Source of the DNA: Halarchaeum nitratireducens
Lineage (GTDB): Archaea; Halobacteriota; Halobacteria; Halobacteriales; Halobacteriaceae
Length of the DNA: 64,000 bases
Direction: 5' to 3'
Assembly (NCBI RefSeq): GCF_014647155.1
Contig: NZ_BMOQ01000008.1
Location: 62,001-126,000, forward strand
The translations under genes and the position numbers were made by a program. The notes under the pieces are model-generated. The model made no database searches and was not told the origin of the DNA. It saw nothing but the letters and a program-made list of their open reading frames with translations. Shown piece by piece: positions 2,570 to 62,425 of this stretch. The first letter of the stretch is position 1, and each line of letters begins with the position of its first letter.

Positions 2570-3142
2570 TCAACACCAGCAGAAATCGTGGTACGCACAG
2601 CTGTCGCAGACGGGTTTTTCGATCGCGTCGGGCGGCGTATCGCGTGTTACCACGCCGTGGATACCCCGGATCGCCGATTCAACCTCCTCACGCACTTCAG
2701 GAGTTAGTTCGACGGGCTCACGGCGGCGTTCTCGAGGGTGTGCGAGCACCCCGTCGCGTTCGACGCCGGCGACCCGTTCGAGATACCAGAGGTAGTAGCT
2801 GAGCTGCATTCGCGCGGGCTCGACGACCGACGACGACGGTTTCACCTCAACGACGCGGCCGTCTTGGAGTAGATCGGGGGCGATCATCCCAAGGTGAAGG
2901 CTACCCTTGCGGTCACTGTACGCGGATTCGTCGATGAGCGTTCCACGCGCAATAGCGGGGTTGTCGCGGTCGATTTCGACGTCGTTGGCCTCGAACCAGA
3001 GTTCGCGCTCACAAACGTGATAGTATTGCATCATGACGCCCGTCACGCGGAACGGGTCTGCCAGCGGCTCGCCGCGCGCGGTCGCCAGTAGTCGCTCTAC
3101 TGGGCCCTCTGGACCGTCGGGATCGGAGTCGCATTCGCTCAT
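2570..3142 (-). CDS. cas4: CRISPR-associated exonuclease Cas4
   Basis: A 190-residue RecB-family nuclease with an iron-sulfur cluster, which trims prespacers and helps select those next to a PAM. Visible family features are an early cysteine (Cys44 in HVCERELWF), the nuclease core with the acidic EVK motif at about 99-101, a tyrosine-rich helix ([10 protein letters not shown]), and the C-terminal cysteines 179, 182, 188 and 190 in [12 protein letters not shown], which with Cys44 can hold a 4Fe-4S cluster. Its ATG overlaps the cas3 stop (ATGA arrangement), the standard haloarchaeal I-B order cas3-cas4-cas1-cas2. Confidence 0.95.
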
Positions 3143-4015
3143 AAGAACTGGCTCACCTCGGCGGCCTCGAAGCCGGTTTCGACGTCGAAGTATGCGTCGT
3201 TGCTGCCGGGTGGATAGACGCGTTCCGTCTCGGCGGCGTCGTTCGGTCTCCGGTCCGCCGGGACGAGGGCTGGGAGACCGCGGAGACGTCCGGCGACATC
3301 CGAGTCCGGGCGATAGACGGGTATGGAGACGCGGATGTCGGCGAGCGTTTTCCGGAGCGCGGCGGCGTCGCCGAACTCGTAGGATTCGATCGCATCGCGG
3401 AGCCGTTCGACCGCTTCGTAGTCCGCCTCGGTCCGGCAGACGTACACCTCGAAGCTGTACGTCTGGTCAATGACGGACGCGCCGCGGAGCCGCCGACCGT
3501 TCGCGTCCGTGTAGGCCTCCAGCAACTCGTCGTCGTCGCTGACGGCGTCCATCGACTCGCCGACCGATTCCTGATAGACGTCGAGGGCGTCTTCGGTTAC
3601 GCGGTCCTCGCCGTGCCACGTGTCGGTCTCGACGCCGGCGTCGGCGAGCGCCTCTCGCGTTCGCGTGAGCAGGTCGAGGCCGCTGCCGGTACCGCGGACG
3701 TACACCGCACTGCTCGGTGGCGTCCGCGTCCGGGGGTCCTCGTCGGGGTCGTCCAACTGCCAGACCGTTACGCGACCGTGGTCCGGGTGGCGCTCGTACG
3801 AGCGGTTGCACCGGCCGGCGACCTGTGCGACGCTGTCGAGGGGCGCTAGGTCACGGAAGACGCGGTCGAAACTCACGTCGACGCCCGCCTCGATCAGTTG
3901 CGTCGAGACGAGGACAAACGGGACGTTCGCGTCGATGAGTTCCTCGGCAGTCGTAAGGAGTGCCGTCCGGTCACGGGCGCGGACGCGCGTCGAGAGGTAG
4001 AGACGGTCGAGGTGA
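3139..4015 (-). pseudogene. cas3: cas3, 3' fragment only (helicase domain 2 and C-terminal region)
   Basis: Only the downstream third of Cas3 remains, about 290 residues; intact haloarchaeal Cas3 is roughly 900. It starts within the second RecA-like helicase domain: [10 protein letters not shown], then motif V ([10 protein letters not shown]) and motif VI (QVAGRCNR), then the C-terminal accessory region. The N-terminal HD nuclease and the Walker A and DEAD-box motifs are absent. The reading frame runs on to 4107, but beyond about 4005-4020 it is antisense to an HNH nuclease fragment, so the breakpoint is there. cas5, cas7, cas8b and cas6, normally upstream of cas3, are not in the window. The fragment cannot be a working nuclease-helicase. 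Confidence 0.9.
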
Positions 4016-4377
4016 GCGCGGGATTTCGTGATCGCGTCCTCCGCATGTACGACGACCAGTGTCTCCTGACCGAATTCACTGGGTCGCCGTTTGTGACGCT
4101 TTCCCACGTCGTGCCACGCGCCAAGGACCTACAGGTCGCTGAACATCCAGATAACGTGATGGTTCTCAACTGGCTGCACCATCAGGCGTTCGACGCGGGC
4201 CTGTTCACGTTCGATGGCGACCATGGACTACATGTTCATCCGGAGTTCGAACCGGAGACAGAGTTCTTCGAGAGAACACTCACGCAACGTGCTGGCGAGC
4301 CGGTGCAGTTCCCGAATAGTGCGACCGTCGGTGAAGCGTTCCTTGACGAGCGGAACGGCACCCTCGACTGGTGGTAG
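4016..4377 (+). pseudogene. HNH restriction-like endonuclease, 3' fragment
   Basis: The + frame encodes [17 protein letters not shown], then [27 protein letters not shown] and LHVHPEF before a stop at 4377. This is the C-terminal HNH domain of a haloarchaeal HNH endonuclease family: His in LSHVVP, Asn and His in NWLHHQAFD. The sequence before about 4016 in this frame is antisense cas3, so the N-terminal DNA-recognition part is lost. The fragment and the cas3 stump meet head to head, each without its 5' end, which means one rearrangement removed the start of both genes. No promoter is expected for what remains. Confidence 0.8.
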
Positions 4378-4433: not shown

Positions 4434-4946
4434 TTACTCGTCGTTGAGGAGTGCTTGAGCGCGCTGCACATAGCTGTTCGACTCCCAACTGCGAGCGGCG
4501 CTGATCGCTTCGAGAATCTCGATCGCGTCCATCGAGGGAAGCTGTTCGGTCCGGACGAAGACCGAGAGGAGTGTCGGCGTCGTCACGAGCCGGGTGTCAG
4601 CGAGCGAGGCGTGTATGAGCCCGACGCTGTTGAACTCGTCACAGAGGAAGAGCGCTGCATCGAGGTCGTTCGCGAGCGTGACGGCGGCGTTCTCACCATC
4701 ATCAAGTGGGAAATCGGCATCGAGCGTGACCGCCGTCACAGAGACTGCATCTTCACGATCGAGGACTGCGGTCGCCGCATTACCGTGGGCGTCGGCATAG
4801 GAGGCGCTCTCTCGGAGCTCGTCGACGACGATCGTTGGGACGTGGACGTCGTAGACGTCGAGACATAGATCGAGTGGGTTCGGAGCGTGGTTGACCGCTG
4901 TTCCGAGGCTGACGAGGCCGGAAGTATCCGCGACGAGAACCGTCAT
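4434..4946 (-). CDS. PIN-domain ribonuclease toxin (VapC-like)
   Basis: A 170-residue PIN-domain protein. The acidic metal-binding residues of the fold are visible: Asp in VLVADTSGLVSLG at the N-terminus, Glu in VVDELRES, Glu in DDGENAAVTLA and Asp in LFLCDEFN. PIN toxins cleave RNA and are held inactive by a cognate antitoxin. The start codon directly adjoins the stop of the upstream ribbon-helix-helix gene, so the two are translated as a pair. It is longer than the classic 130-residue VapC, with a helical C-terminal tail (IEILEAISAARSWE). The target RNA cannot be told from sequence. Confidence 0.8.
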   Translation of the reverse strand: MTVLVADTSGLVSLGTAVNHAPNPLDLCLDVYDVHVPTIVVDELRESASYADAHGNAATAVLDREDAVSVTAVTLDADFPLDDGENAAVTLANDLDAALFLCDEFNSVGLIHASLADTRLVTTPTLLSVFVRTEQLPSMDAIEILEAISAARSWESNSYVQRAQALLNDE

Positions 4947-5249
4947 TTAGTGGTCAGCGACGTCGTCGATGTAGTCGTCGTCGAGTTGCTCCTTCAGAAC
5001 GCGGAGATTCGCGGATTCCTCGGCGCCGACGAGTGACTTGAGCTGGTCGTAGGTGATCTCATCGTCGTAGTAGGCGGCGGCGATCTCTTGGACGAGTGCA
5101 TCGTCGTGCGTTGCCTCTTGGAGGTACTCTCGGAGCGCGGTGACGAGGATATCGGTTCGGTCCTCACCGAGGACGTTCGCGAGTGCGTCCGCTCGGTCGA
5201 TGAGTCGGTCAGGGGCGCGGAACTGGACGCGTTTCTTCTCAGCGCTCAT
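4947..5249 (-). CDS. Ribbon-helix-helix antitoxin
   Basis: A 100-residue protein opening MSAEKKRVQFRAPDRLIDRAD, a ribbon-helix-helix DNA-binding domain (beta strand KRVQFRAP, then two helices through ILVTALREYL). The acidic C-terminal half (DEITYDQLKSLVG, then LDDDYIDDVADH) would wrap the toxin. I take the ATG at 5249: an upstream in-frame extension would run through the palindromic operator. The gene precedes the toxin without a gap, the usual antitoxin-first order. Autorepression is likely, given the palindrome four bases upstream of the start. Confidence 0.75.
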   Translation of the reverse strand: MSAEKKRVQFRAPDRLIDRADALANVLGEDRTDILVTALREYLQEATHDDALVQEIAAAYYDDEITYDQLKSLVGAEESANLRVLKEQLDDDYIDDVADH

Positions 5250-5252
5250 GAT

Positions 5253-5267
5253 ATGTACATTGTACAT
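5253..5267 (-). promoter_or_regulatory. Palindromic operator of the toxin-antitoxin pair
   Basis: ATGTACA-T-TGTACAT is a perfect 15-base palindrome four bases upstream of the antitoxin start. A second related site, TGTACATTGTGA, lies at 5291-5302. Paired TGTACA half-sites suit binding by dimers of the ribbon-helix-helix antitoxin. Assignment to this repressor is inferred from position. Confidence 0.6.
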
Positions 5268-5463
5268 CCCCCTACTTAGCGATTGTCGTGTGTACATTGT
5301 GAGCCAATTAGTCCTCATCATGTTATCTCTCCCGTACGAGGTGGGTTTCGAGATCGTACGTCCAGTCGATCGTGACTCATCGAGGATGTGGCGAGCACAA
5401 AAATAATTTGGACGTGGAATGGCTCAATAGGCGCTTCTAGGGTGGCTGGTCGGTTGAACCCGA

Positions 5464-5589: not shown

Positions 5590-6407
5590 GTGTTTAGTTA
5601 AACGAATTCCACCAGACGGCGAAGGCTTGCAACCACGTTTCTGCGGTCTCCGGATCGACGTGGCTAAAACTATTACTGAACGAGGAAGTTCGGCGTTTTA
5701 TTTCTCGAAAGATACGTTCTACGGCGTTCCGATTTCCATGGCGAACGGTTTGAAATCGGAGTCCTGCTCGATGTAGTGCAGCTGCTAGGTGCTGGGCGTG
5801 ATCGACGAGAAACACGGCGTCTTTGACGTCGTGTTTCTCGCAAGTCTCCCGCAGGAACTGCTGCGTCAATGCTGTCGTAGTCGTCGTAAACAGCCGTAGG
5901 TGCAGGAATTTGTTTGTTTCTGGATCGACGGCGGCGTACAGCCAGAACTGCTGTCCATTGATCCGGATCACCGTCTCGTCAAGCGCGATGTGATCCGGGT
6001 TTGCGTCACTGGCTGGCTGTAGATTTGCCTTCTGCACCCAGTCGTGAACGGCCTTCCGCGACCGTTCGACACCGAACTTATCAAGTATAGATATGGTATT
6101 CAAAAGCGAGAGTCCAGATAAATGAAGTCGAATACCGAGCTCCATCAGCTCGATCGGTGTCCGCTCTCGCTCCACAAACTCCAAGTCGATCCGGTCGCTA
6201 CGACCGCTGAGGCGTGTGATTTCTGCCATAGATCAGCTGAAAGTCATCACGCCTCACTTTTCAGCCTTAACTAAACACCGCCCCGCTCACGCTCCCAAAC
6301 TTCTTCTAAATCCGCGTCATAGCACTCGCTGAGCAGATCTGCGAGCATCTTGACCAACTAACTCAACGACCTGCTCATTCCTCAAACTGGCTTAACTAGA
6401 CAGTGCC
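5590..6407 (-). mobile_element. Hybrid IS6-family unit, copy 1 (IS-A plus 129-base IS-B end)
   Basis: The left 689 bases (5590-6278) form a complete IS6-family element, called IS-A here, bounded by GTGTTTAGTTAA at 5590-5601 and its complement at 6267-6278. It is followed at once by 129 bases (6279-6407) matching the transposase-start end of a second IS type (IS-B, intact at 41649-42394), ending in the IS-B terminal repeat AACTAGACAGTGCC at 6394-6407. The same 689+129 arrangement recurs at 21823-22640. No target-site duplication is visible at the outer edges. Confidence 0.85.
5594..6229 (-). CDS. IS6-family transposase (IS-A, copy 1)
   Basis: A 211-residue DDE transposase with the catalytic acids in place: Asp84 in IALDETVIRI, Asp143 in FLVDHAQHL and Glu171 in NAVERIFREIKRR. 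The N-terminal 65 residues hold a helix-turn-helix-like region (RSRKAVHDWVQKA) that would bind the terminal repeats. IS6 elements move by replicative transposition, forming cointegrates. The frame is unbroken and both element ends are present, so this copy may be active. It is closely similar to the copies at 6408-6999 and 21827-22462. Confidence 0.93.
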   Translation of the reverse strand: MAEITRLSGRSDRIDLEFVERERTPIELMELGIRLHLSGLSLLNTISILDKFGVERSRKAVHDWVQKANLQPASDANPDHIALDETVIRINGQQFWLYAAVDPETNKFLHLRLFTTTTTALTQQFLRETCEKHDVKDAVFLVDHAQHLAAALHRAGLRFQTVRHGNRNAVERIFREIKRRTSSFSNSFSHVDPETAETWLQAFAVWWNSFN

Positions 6408-6951
6408 GAGTTCGACGTTTTATTTCTATACAGACACGTTCTACAGCATTCCGATTTCCATGACGAATCGTTTGAAATCGGAGTCCTGCTCGATGCAGTG
6501 CAGCCGCTAGATGCTGGGCGTGATCGACGAGAAACACGGCGTCGGAGACATCGTGTTTCTCACGAAGCTCCCGCAAAAACTGCTGCGTCAATGCCGTCGC
6601 AGTCGTCGTAAACAGCCGAGCATGGAGGAATTTGTTCGTTTCGGGATTGACGGCGGCGTACAGCCAGAACTGCTGTCCGTTGATTCGGATCTCCGTTTCG
6701 TCGAGTGCGATGTGATCCGAACTCGCATCGCTGGCTGGCTGTAGATCGGCTTTCTGCACCCAGTCGTGAACCGCTTTCCGCGACCGATCGACACCGAACT
6801 TCTCAAGTTCCGAGATGGTATTGGCAAGTGAGAGTCCCGACAAATGAGGTCGAATACCCAGTTCCATCAGCTCGCTCGGCGTCCGCTCTCGCTCCACAAA
6901 CTCCAAGTCGATCCAGTCGCTACGACCGCTGAGGCGGGTGATTTCAGCCAT
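6408..6951 (-). pseudogene. IS-A transposase, 3'-truncated
   Basis: The first 181 residues match the intact IS-A transposase, including all three catalytic acids (IALDETEIRI, FLVDHAQHL, NAVERVCIEIKRR). The final 30 residues of the family, ending in AFAVWWNS, are missing and replaced by a few residues read through the neighbouring IS-B end (TRHCLVKPV). The open frame therefore ends at 6382, outside the element. Loss of the C-terminal helix probably inactivates it, though the DDE core could still fold. Confidence 0.85.
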
Positions 6952-60694: not shown

Positions 60695-62425
60695 GTGACC
60701 ACCCCCGATCGACGTGCCCTCCGCGCACTCGCTGTCGTCACGATCGCCGTCGCGACAGTCACGGGACTCGTGACAGCCAGCCACCCCCGACCTGGAAGCG
60801 AGGGGAATGGCCTCACGCAAAACCAGTCGGCGACGCTCTGGTCGCGTGACGCAGACAACTACACGAGTCAAACAGCCTATTGACAGCGCTACGGCGAGAA
60901 TCGGACCGCGATGGGTCAGCTCGCGAACGGAACGGACATCACGTTCACGCGGCCGCCCGCCACTGCTTCCACTTGGACGAGCCACGACTTCACCGACCTC
61001 CACGCCGGCGGACCGCACACCTCCATCCACACACCCGACGCCGACCTCGAGAGCAGCGTGTTCATCGCGGATGCTCACGCGACGATCTTCGCTGCCCAGC
61101 CGTCGACGCAAGCGCATCTCTCAAAGAATCAGACGACCCGCTATCTCGCACCGAACGGCACACTCCGCGGCTTCGTCGACTACCGCGTCCGCTACCCGAA
61201 CACGACGACGAACGGCAATCGGAGTGTCGACTGGTCGCTCACCAGCCACCAGATCACGAACGTCACCCTCACGCAGGACGGCCAGACGATCGCGACGGCG
61301 CCCGGATCACACACGCCCGTCCTCCACTACCAGCTCGACGACGCCCAACAGACGAAACTGACTCTCCACGCAACGATCCACGTGCGCGTCCAGAAGACCG
61401 TCCGTGTGAACGGAACGGTTGTCGACGTCACGACAAAGGGCGACTCACTCACCGTCTCGGACTCGCTGGCGGGGTCAGTCTACAACCTCTCGGCGTCCCC
61501 CTACTACGCCACGTATCCGAACGGTGACGCCGGCGTCGCGATCTTCCAGTCCGCGCCGTGGCAGGGGTATACGCTCACGAAGAACGGCAGCGCCCGCGTT
61601 CGTGGCGTCTGGCGATTCTACACCGCCCGCAACACGAGCTGGGATACCCTCGTCAAGTCCACCCGCGATGGAGACAGGCAGACAGCCTCCGATTCGATTC
61701 CGGTCTTCGTGCACGCCTATCCGTCGCGGATCGGACCGGTCGCCGAGCCCGTTCGGACGGGACCCTCAATCATCACGACGTGGGGGACGAATCGATCCTC
61801 TCCGAGCGCGACGCTCGGCCCGAACATCCACATCGACATCGTCAACCGCTCCTATACCACGACGTACGGCCTCGCCGTCCGCGCCGACCACGTCGACCGG
61901 CAGGCGCTCCACGTCGCAGGAATCGTCCGCGGCGTGAATGCGAGCATCGTCCAACCGCAGCAAGGGTCAAAACGCCAGCTCCGCCGGAGTAACCTCACCG
62001 CCCACGTTGTCTCGCAGAACGCCTCGCAAGCGACGGTTCGCGTCGAACTCCACGACAACAAGACCGGAGCACCGATCGTCCTCAACCAGAGCGGGCGGTA
62101 TCCGATCTTCCAACGGTCCCGTGACGGCTACATCACGGTTGGCGGGAAGCGGGTAACGACGAACGAATCAGGCGTCGCGATGGTGACACTCCACCAGCCG
62201 GGCATCTACACGGCTCGCTATCACCCCGAGTCGTGGCTCGGGACGGACCCCGCGTACGTGAGCGACCGGGCGACCGTGCGCTGGCACCCACTCGGCACGC
62301 TCGGTGGATGGCTCGATTTTATTGTCGCCGTCGGCTGGCGACTCATCCCGTTCGCCGTGATGTTCTACGCCGGCCTGCGACTCCTCCGGATGCTCGGCGC
62401 CGAACGCTACTTTAGTGACCCATGA
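60695..62425 (+). pseudogene. Large surface protein with C-terminal anchor, split by an in-frame TGA
   Basis: A GTG start at 60695 opens MTTPDRRALRALAVVTIAVA, a signal-like helix, and continues to DNYTSQTAY before TGA at 60881-60883. The same frame resumes (QRYGENRTAMGQLANGTDIT) and runs to 62425. The combined product would be 576 residues: an extracellular beta-rich, Thr/Asn-rich region with many N-glycosylation sequons, then a C-terminal helix (about WLDFIVAVGWRLIPFAVMFY). The downstream part has no signal of its own, so the TGA most likely inactivates the gene unless it is read through. ATG 60911 is the first Met after the stop. Its 3' end overlaps the lipoprotein gene by four bases. Confidence 0.65.

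Follow-up and report, generated by a model that had tools for sequence, protein, structure and literature searches.

A type I-B CRISPR locus of Halarchaeum nitratireducens that probably lost its Cascade genes in one deletion

What does a type I-B CRISPR locus amount to when cas4, cas1, cas2, and a long array are left in it but the effector genes are not: a module that still records DNA, a source of crRNAs for another effector in the same cell, or a derelict? We studied such a locus in the draft genome of Halarchaeum nitratireducens (27 contigs totaling 3.14 Mb, with 98.2% completeness and 3.1% contamination), whose placement in the genus Halarchaeum was confirmed, using a stretch of 64,000 nucleotides (positions 62,001 to 126,000 of contig 8). 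This whole stretch is referred to here as the window, and positions are those of the window unless a contig is named. Most probably, we are dealing with a haloarchaeal type I-B locus gone derelict, which lost Cascade by one deletion and is now dispensable beside a type I-D system.

Results

What is left of the type I-B locus lies on the minus strand at the left end of the window. The leader-side part of the array (positions 1 to 1212) is followed by the leader (1213 to 1313), cas2 (1314 to 1574; PF09827, and TIGR01573 above the cut-off), cas1b (1575 to 2576; 384 bits with TIGR03641 versus a cut-off of 304), and cas4 (2570 to 3142; PF01930, and TIGR00372 above the cut-off), the start of which overlaps the stop of a cas3 remnant (3139 to 4002). 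The array beside cas2 is of the haloarchaeal kind with 30-nt repeats and extends past the left edge of the window; it comprises 29 identical repeats, 19 of them inside the window, and one distal repeat with one mismatch. An IS240-type transposase (contig 8, 60,756 to 61,283) adjoins the distal end, where its called start falls within the last, mismatched repeat and its N terminus looks shortened.

The cas3 gene keeps just its C-terminal third, as the initial annotation had proposed. In the open reading frame (ORF) at 3139 to 4107 (minus strand), Cas3 sequence is confined to the C-terminal ~290 residues, and the first ~35 codons (4003 to 4107) are antisense HNH sequence. The remnant covers the end of the helicase region and the C-terminal domain (PF22590, positions 29 to 104 of 106) and has neither the HD nuclease nor the helicase motifs of the front part, so that the type I-B locus has no Cas3 with an HD nuclease and a complete helicase. 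Relatives are ~880 to 950 amino acids long (within the family, open frames of 879 to 948 amino acids, one contig-end case excepted). Cas3 homologues at an E value of ≤1e-30 were found in 98 of the 392 genomes of the order, with open frames of at least 841 amino acids; the exceptions were the frame studied here (329), a frame cut by a contig end (546), and a single frame of 652. Given this near-universal length, the remnant falls outside any short protein family. A stand-alone short Cas3 or helicase family (~320 amino acids) was rejected on this basis, as no short relative aligning end to end with 3139 to 4107 was found in the 392 genomes, 98 of them bearing homologues.

Next to the cas3 remnant, a plus-strand ORF (3997 to 4377) matches HNH_2 and represents what is left, on the 3' side, of an HNH nuclease gene. 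Over 120 residues, it shares 76% identity with the end of a 326-codon ORF from another genome of the same family (G023). The HNH_2 domain is retained, and the N-terminal ~200 residues of full-length relatives, present in the G023 ORF, are absent. A search of the genome with residues 1 to 195 of the G023 protein gave no match, an empty result that is weak as it had no positive control. A modified-base reader domain, guessed by eye in the HNH N terminus, found no support in Pfam or PDB. The genome encodes one more HNH homologue of this kind, with 44% identity, on contig 6 (251,503 to 251,859).

The two remnants are joined head to head, the HNH gene being divergent. The homology of the HNH ORF to its full-length G023 relative starts at base 3997, and Cas3 homology starts with LYLSTR at base 4002, reading leftwards; Cas3 relatives have ..LLHLSTR or ..VLFLSTR where the remnant has ..RLYLSTR. 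The two homologies thus overlap by 6 bp, GTAGAG, at 3997 to 4002. The head-to-head arrangement had been recognized by the initial annotation, although its position for the break (4005 to 4020) is displaced from these homology limits. We infer that GTAGAG may be the microhomology used in the deletion.

The genes cas5, cas7, cas8b, and cas6 are absent from their usual place at the locus. As a reference, we used 70 comparator type I-B Cas1 loci, picked by Cas1 or Cas3 similarity and not a census (in two pairs, both members are one and the same locus). Every locus with enough flanking DNA matched all effector genes; the incomplete ones were on short contigs (L145, L147, and L069) or, in L162, which was without only cas6, beside a contig end. 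The initial annotation had left room for Cascade and Cas3 encoded elsewhere, and the search of the rest of the 98%-complete draft returned no type I-B effector. Genome-wide, Cas8b/Csh1 (TIGR02591) had no match at an E value of ≤1 (the control, Haloferax volcanii, was positive), and Cas7/Csh2 (TIGR02590) and the Cas3 HD family gave noise matches only (12.7 and 13 bits, respectively). The sole Cas6-like match in the genome belongs to the type I-D system described below. In Haloferax, a stable crRNA population requires a Cascade-like complex (PMC3945376). Without Cas6, Cas5, Cas7, Cas8b, and Cas3, the array would be unable to be processed and used as type I-B immunity.

How the effector genes may have been lost is suggested by the junction. 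The ancestral order would have been the usual cas6-cas8b-cas7-cas5-cas3-cas4-cas1-cas2-array, with the HNH nuclease gene divergent upstream. Since the HNH gene is divergent from the cas operon, a deletion from mid-cas3 to mid-HNH yields exactly the junction observed. An intact operon used for comparison, that of plasmid pCBA1220-01 (NZ_CP054708.1) from Halarchaeum sp. CBA1220, belongs to the same genus; measured against it, the losses comprise cas6, cas8b, cas7, cas5, ~1.8 kb of cas3, and ~0.6 kb of the HNH gene, which add up to ~7 to 8 kb or more. One deletion of this size would have taken everything from mid-cas3 to mid-HNH, possibly via end joining at the 6-bp match. An inversion or translocation was not favored, since it would leave the 5' parts of cas3 and of the HNH gene elsewhere and neither was found in the assembly; for this reason, a single deletion would explain the junction better than an inversion. 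The earlier suggestion that a single event removed the starts of two defense genes holds up in this respect.

Could the junction be chimeric, or could Cascade reside on an unassembled plasmid? The genome is a draft with some contamination and the only one of its species in the set compared, and a plasmid-borne Cascade could be missing from such an assembly. The junction, however, lies inside a 178-kb contig, fragments of cas8b, cas7, or the cas3 HD region occur on none of the 27 contigs, and the signs of decay in the remnant (see below) are consistent with a loss that is genuine and not very recent. An argument against an assembly error is that it would have to lose several kilobases of cas genes from all contigs as well. 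Taken together, we regard an artefact or a missing replicon as very unlikely, and a real deletion remains our preferred reading.

Around the junction, two more related transposase copies were detected at 5594 to 6229, which matches DDE_Tnp_IS240, and at 6382 to 6951, which is similar and looks truncated. The type I-B locus therefore sits in a stretch rich in insertion sequences.

We then evaluated the remaining acquisition genes. The cas ORFs still present are all open, and in the alignment Cas1 retains E160, H225, and D240, which we take to be its catalytic positions. Cas1 also carries seven sole deviations at columns invariant in 49 other sequences (the next highest count is two), sits on a terminal branch that exceeds all others among 67 (0.78; median, 0.11), and showed an excess in Tajima relative-rate tests versus two comparators (P values of ~3e-4 and 1e-3). 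The Cas3 remnant has four sole deviations at invariant columns (at most one in the others) and a branch of 0.81, whereas the branches of its two sisters measure 0.45 and 0.37. The relative-rate excess was not significant for Cas4, Cas2, or the Cas3 remnant. The long branches of Cas1 and Cas3 may stem from the age and poor sampling of the lineage instead of decay, and some of the changes in Cas1, Cas3, and the leader may predate the deletion.

The leader had been described as intact, which goes too far. Its length and position are normal, and its most conserved motif, 64 bases ahead of the first repeat (-64), reads GAGCGATGGTA instead of GGTCGACGGAA. In comparison with other leaders, the motif keeps its position but is degenerate, with 4 mismatches of 11 versus 0 to 2 in most comparators. 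Furthermore, the region upstream of the cas operon is deleted. The nearest co-oriented genes upstream of what remains are an adjoining pair of small genes at 4434 to 5321. The pair is antitoxin-toxin-like, the first gene having a weak RHH match and the second being PIN-like by eye only.

Would the remaining genes still insert spacers? In a live acquisition-only module, Cas4-Cas1-Cas2 would insert spacers by the naive route, the spacers would never be used, and transcription would perhaps come by read-through from the small gene pair. The open ORFs, the retained Cas1 residues, the 29 identical repeats, and the lack of a rate excess in Cas4 and Cas2 argue for such a module and count against a derelict locus. 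Likewise, low-level naive acquisition in Haloferax volcanii proceeds without interference (PMC7521656). In Haloarcula hispanica, by contrast, type I-B acquisition depended on Cas3, Cas4, and Cascade, and none of 300 cas3-deleted colonies showed any (PMC3936756). Cas1 of the window is 62% identical to that of Haloarcula hispanica and 64% identical to that of a Haloferax relative, so that relatedness does not decide which requirement applies. The sole deviations and rate excess of Cas1 and the degenerate leader motif also stand against live acquisition, as does the fact that no spacer convincingly matches the genome itself, a trace that would tend to arise from unrestrained acquisition. On balance, a live module appears unlikely to us. 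Promoter capture, in which cas4-cas1-cas2 would be driven by the small-gene promoter and still record DNA into an array unable to act, is very unlikely. The adaptation-only module of the initial annotation is thus recovered in its parts (Cas4, Cas1, Cas2, and the identical repeats), whereas working acquisition is called into question by the signs of decay in Cas1 and the leader, the loss of the upstream region, and the requirement seen in Haloarcula hispanica. In a derelict locus, the acquisition genes would probably be silent or nearly so and drifting.

The content of the array was compared with the genome itself and with databases. Matches of the whole array to its own genome were only weak, the best being 84% over 37 bases near a gene resembling those of integrated elements. 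It involves the full length of an old distal spacer, the 27th from the leader (contig 5, 177,680 to 177,716), and the nearby ORF resembles the replication protein of an integrated element. No spacer target was found in phage records, and the plasmid matches of the spacers were other CRISPR arrays, hit through repeat similarity. For six spacers, the first 22 bases were compared with 2.9 million viral contigs, and none of them was matched exactly.

A second CRISPR type is encoded on contig 7, where a complete type I-D locus spans ~140,783 to 154,610. It comprises Csa3, Cas6, Cas10d (an 886-codon open frame), Csc2, Csc1, Cas3', Cas4, a Cas1d-like protein, and a Cas2-like ORF, and an array lies on either side of it, one with 17 and the other with 22 repeats, each 37 bases long. 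Overlapping the end of cas10d is a separate ORF of 145 amino acids whose match is to the C-terminal part of the Cas10d/Csc3 profile, as though the small subunit were encoded by a gene of its own. Could this effector process and use crRNAs from the type I-B array? In favor are the complete locus with its Cas6 and the resemblance of the two repeats over their final eight bases (GTTGAAGC and ATTGAAAC). As wholes, however, the repeats differ in length (37 versus 30), sequence, and predicted fold, and the type I-D system has two arrays and a cas4-cas1-cas2 set of its own, so we regard shared use as very unlikely. More plausibly, the complete type I-D system would serve the cell independently, making the type I-B locus dispensable.

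Discussion

The locus offers a well-resolved example of a Cascade cassette apparently lost in one step, with memory and recording genes lingering beside a second, complete CRISPR type. As an instance of gene loss, it is clean but ordinary. Degraded CRISPR loci are already known in haloarchaea. If the recording genes were active, the organism would offer a natural setting in which to study acquisition without interference, although the sequence evidence leans against it; promoter capture, if true, would make it a natural spacer recorder without interference.

Among known systems, the type I-B locus of Halarchaeum sp. CBA1220 shares the cas4-cas1-cas2-array order, and its Cas1 is 65% identical, but it has the full cas3, cas5, cas7, cas8b, cas6, and undamaged leader motif that the Halarchaeum nitratireducens locus is without. 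The residual CRISPR of Haloquadratum walsbyi HBSQ001 is likewise a haloarchaeal locus disabled by deletion; there, all cas genes were lost and 5 complete spacers are left (PMC3119063), while here the acquisition genes and ~29 spacers are left. The proviral type I-B system of Haloferax lucentense is another partial haloarchaeal locus beside a different CRISPR system and represents the mirror case, with the effector present and cas1, cas2, and cas4 absent (PMC12596717).
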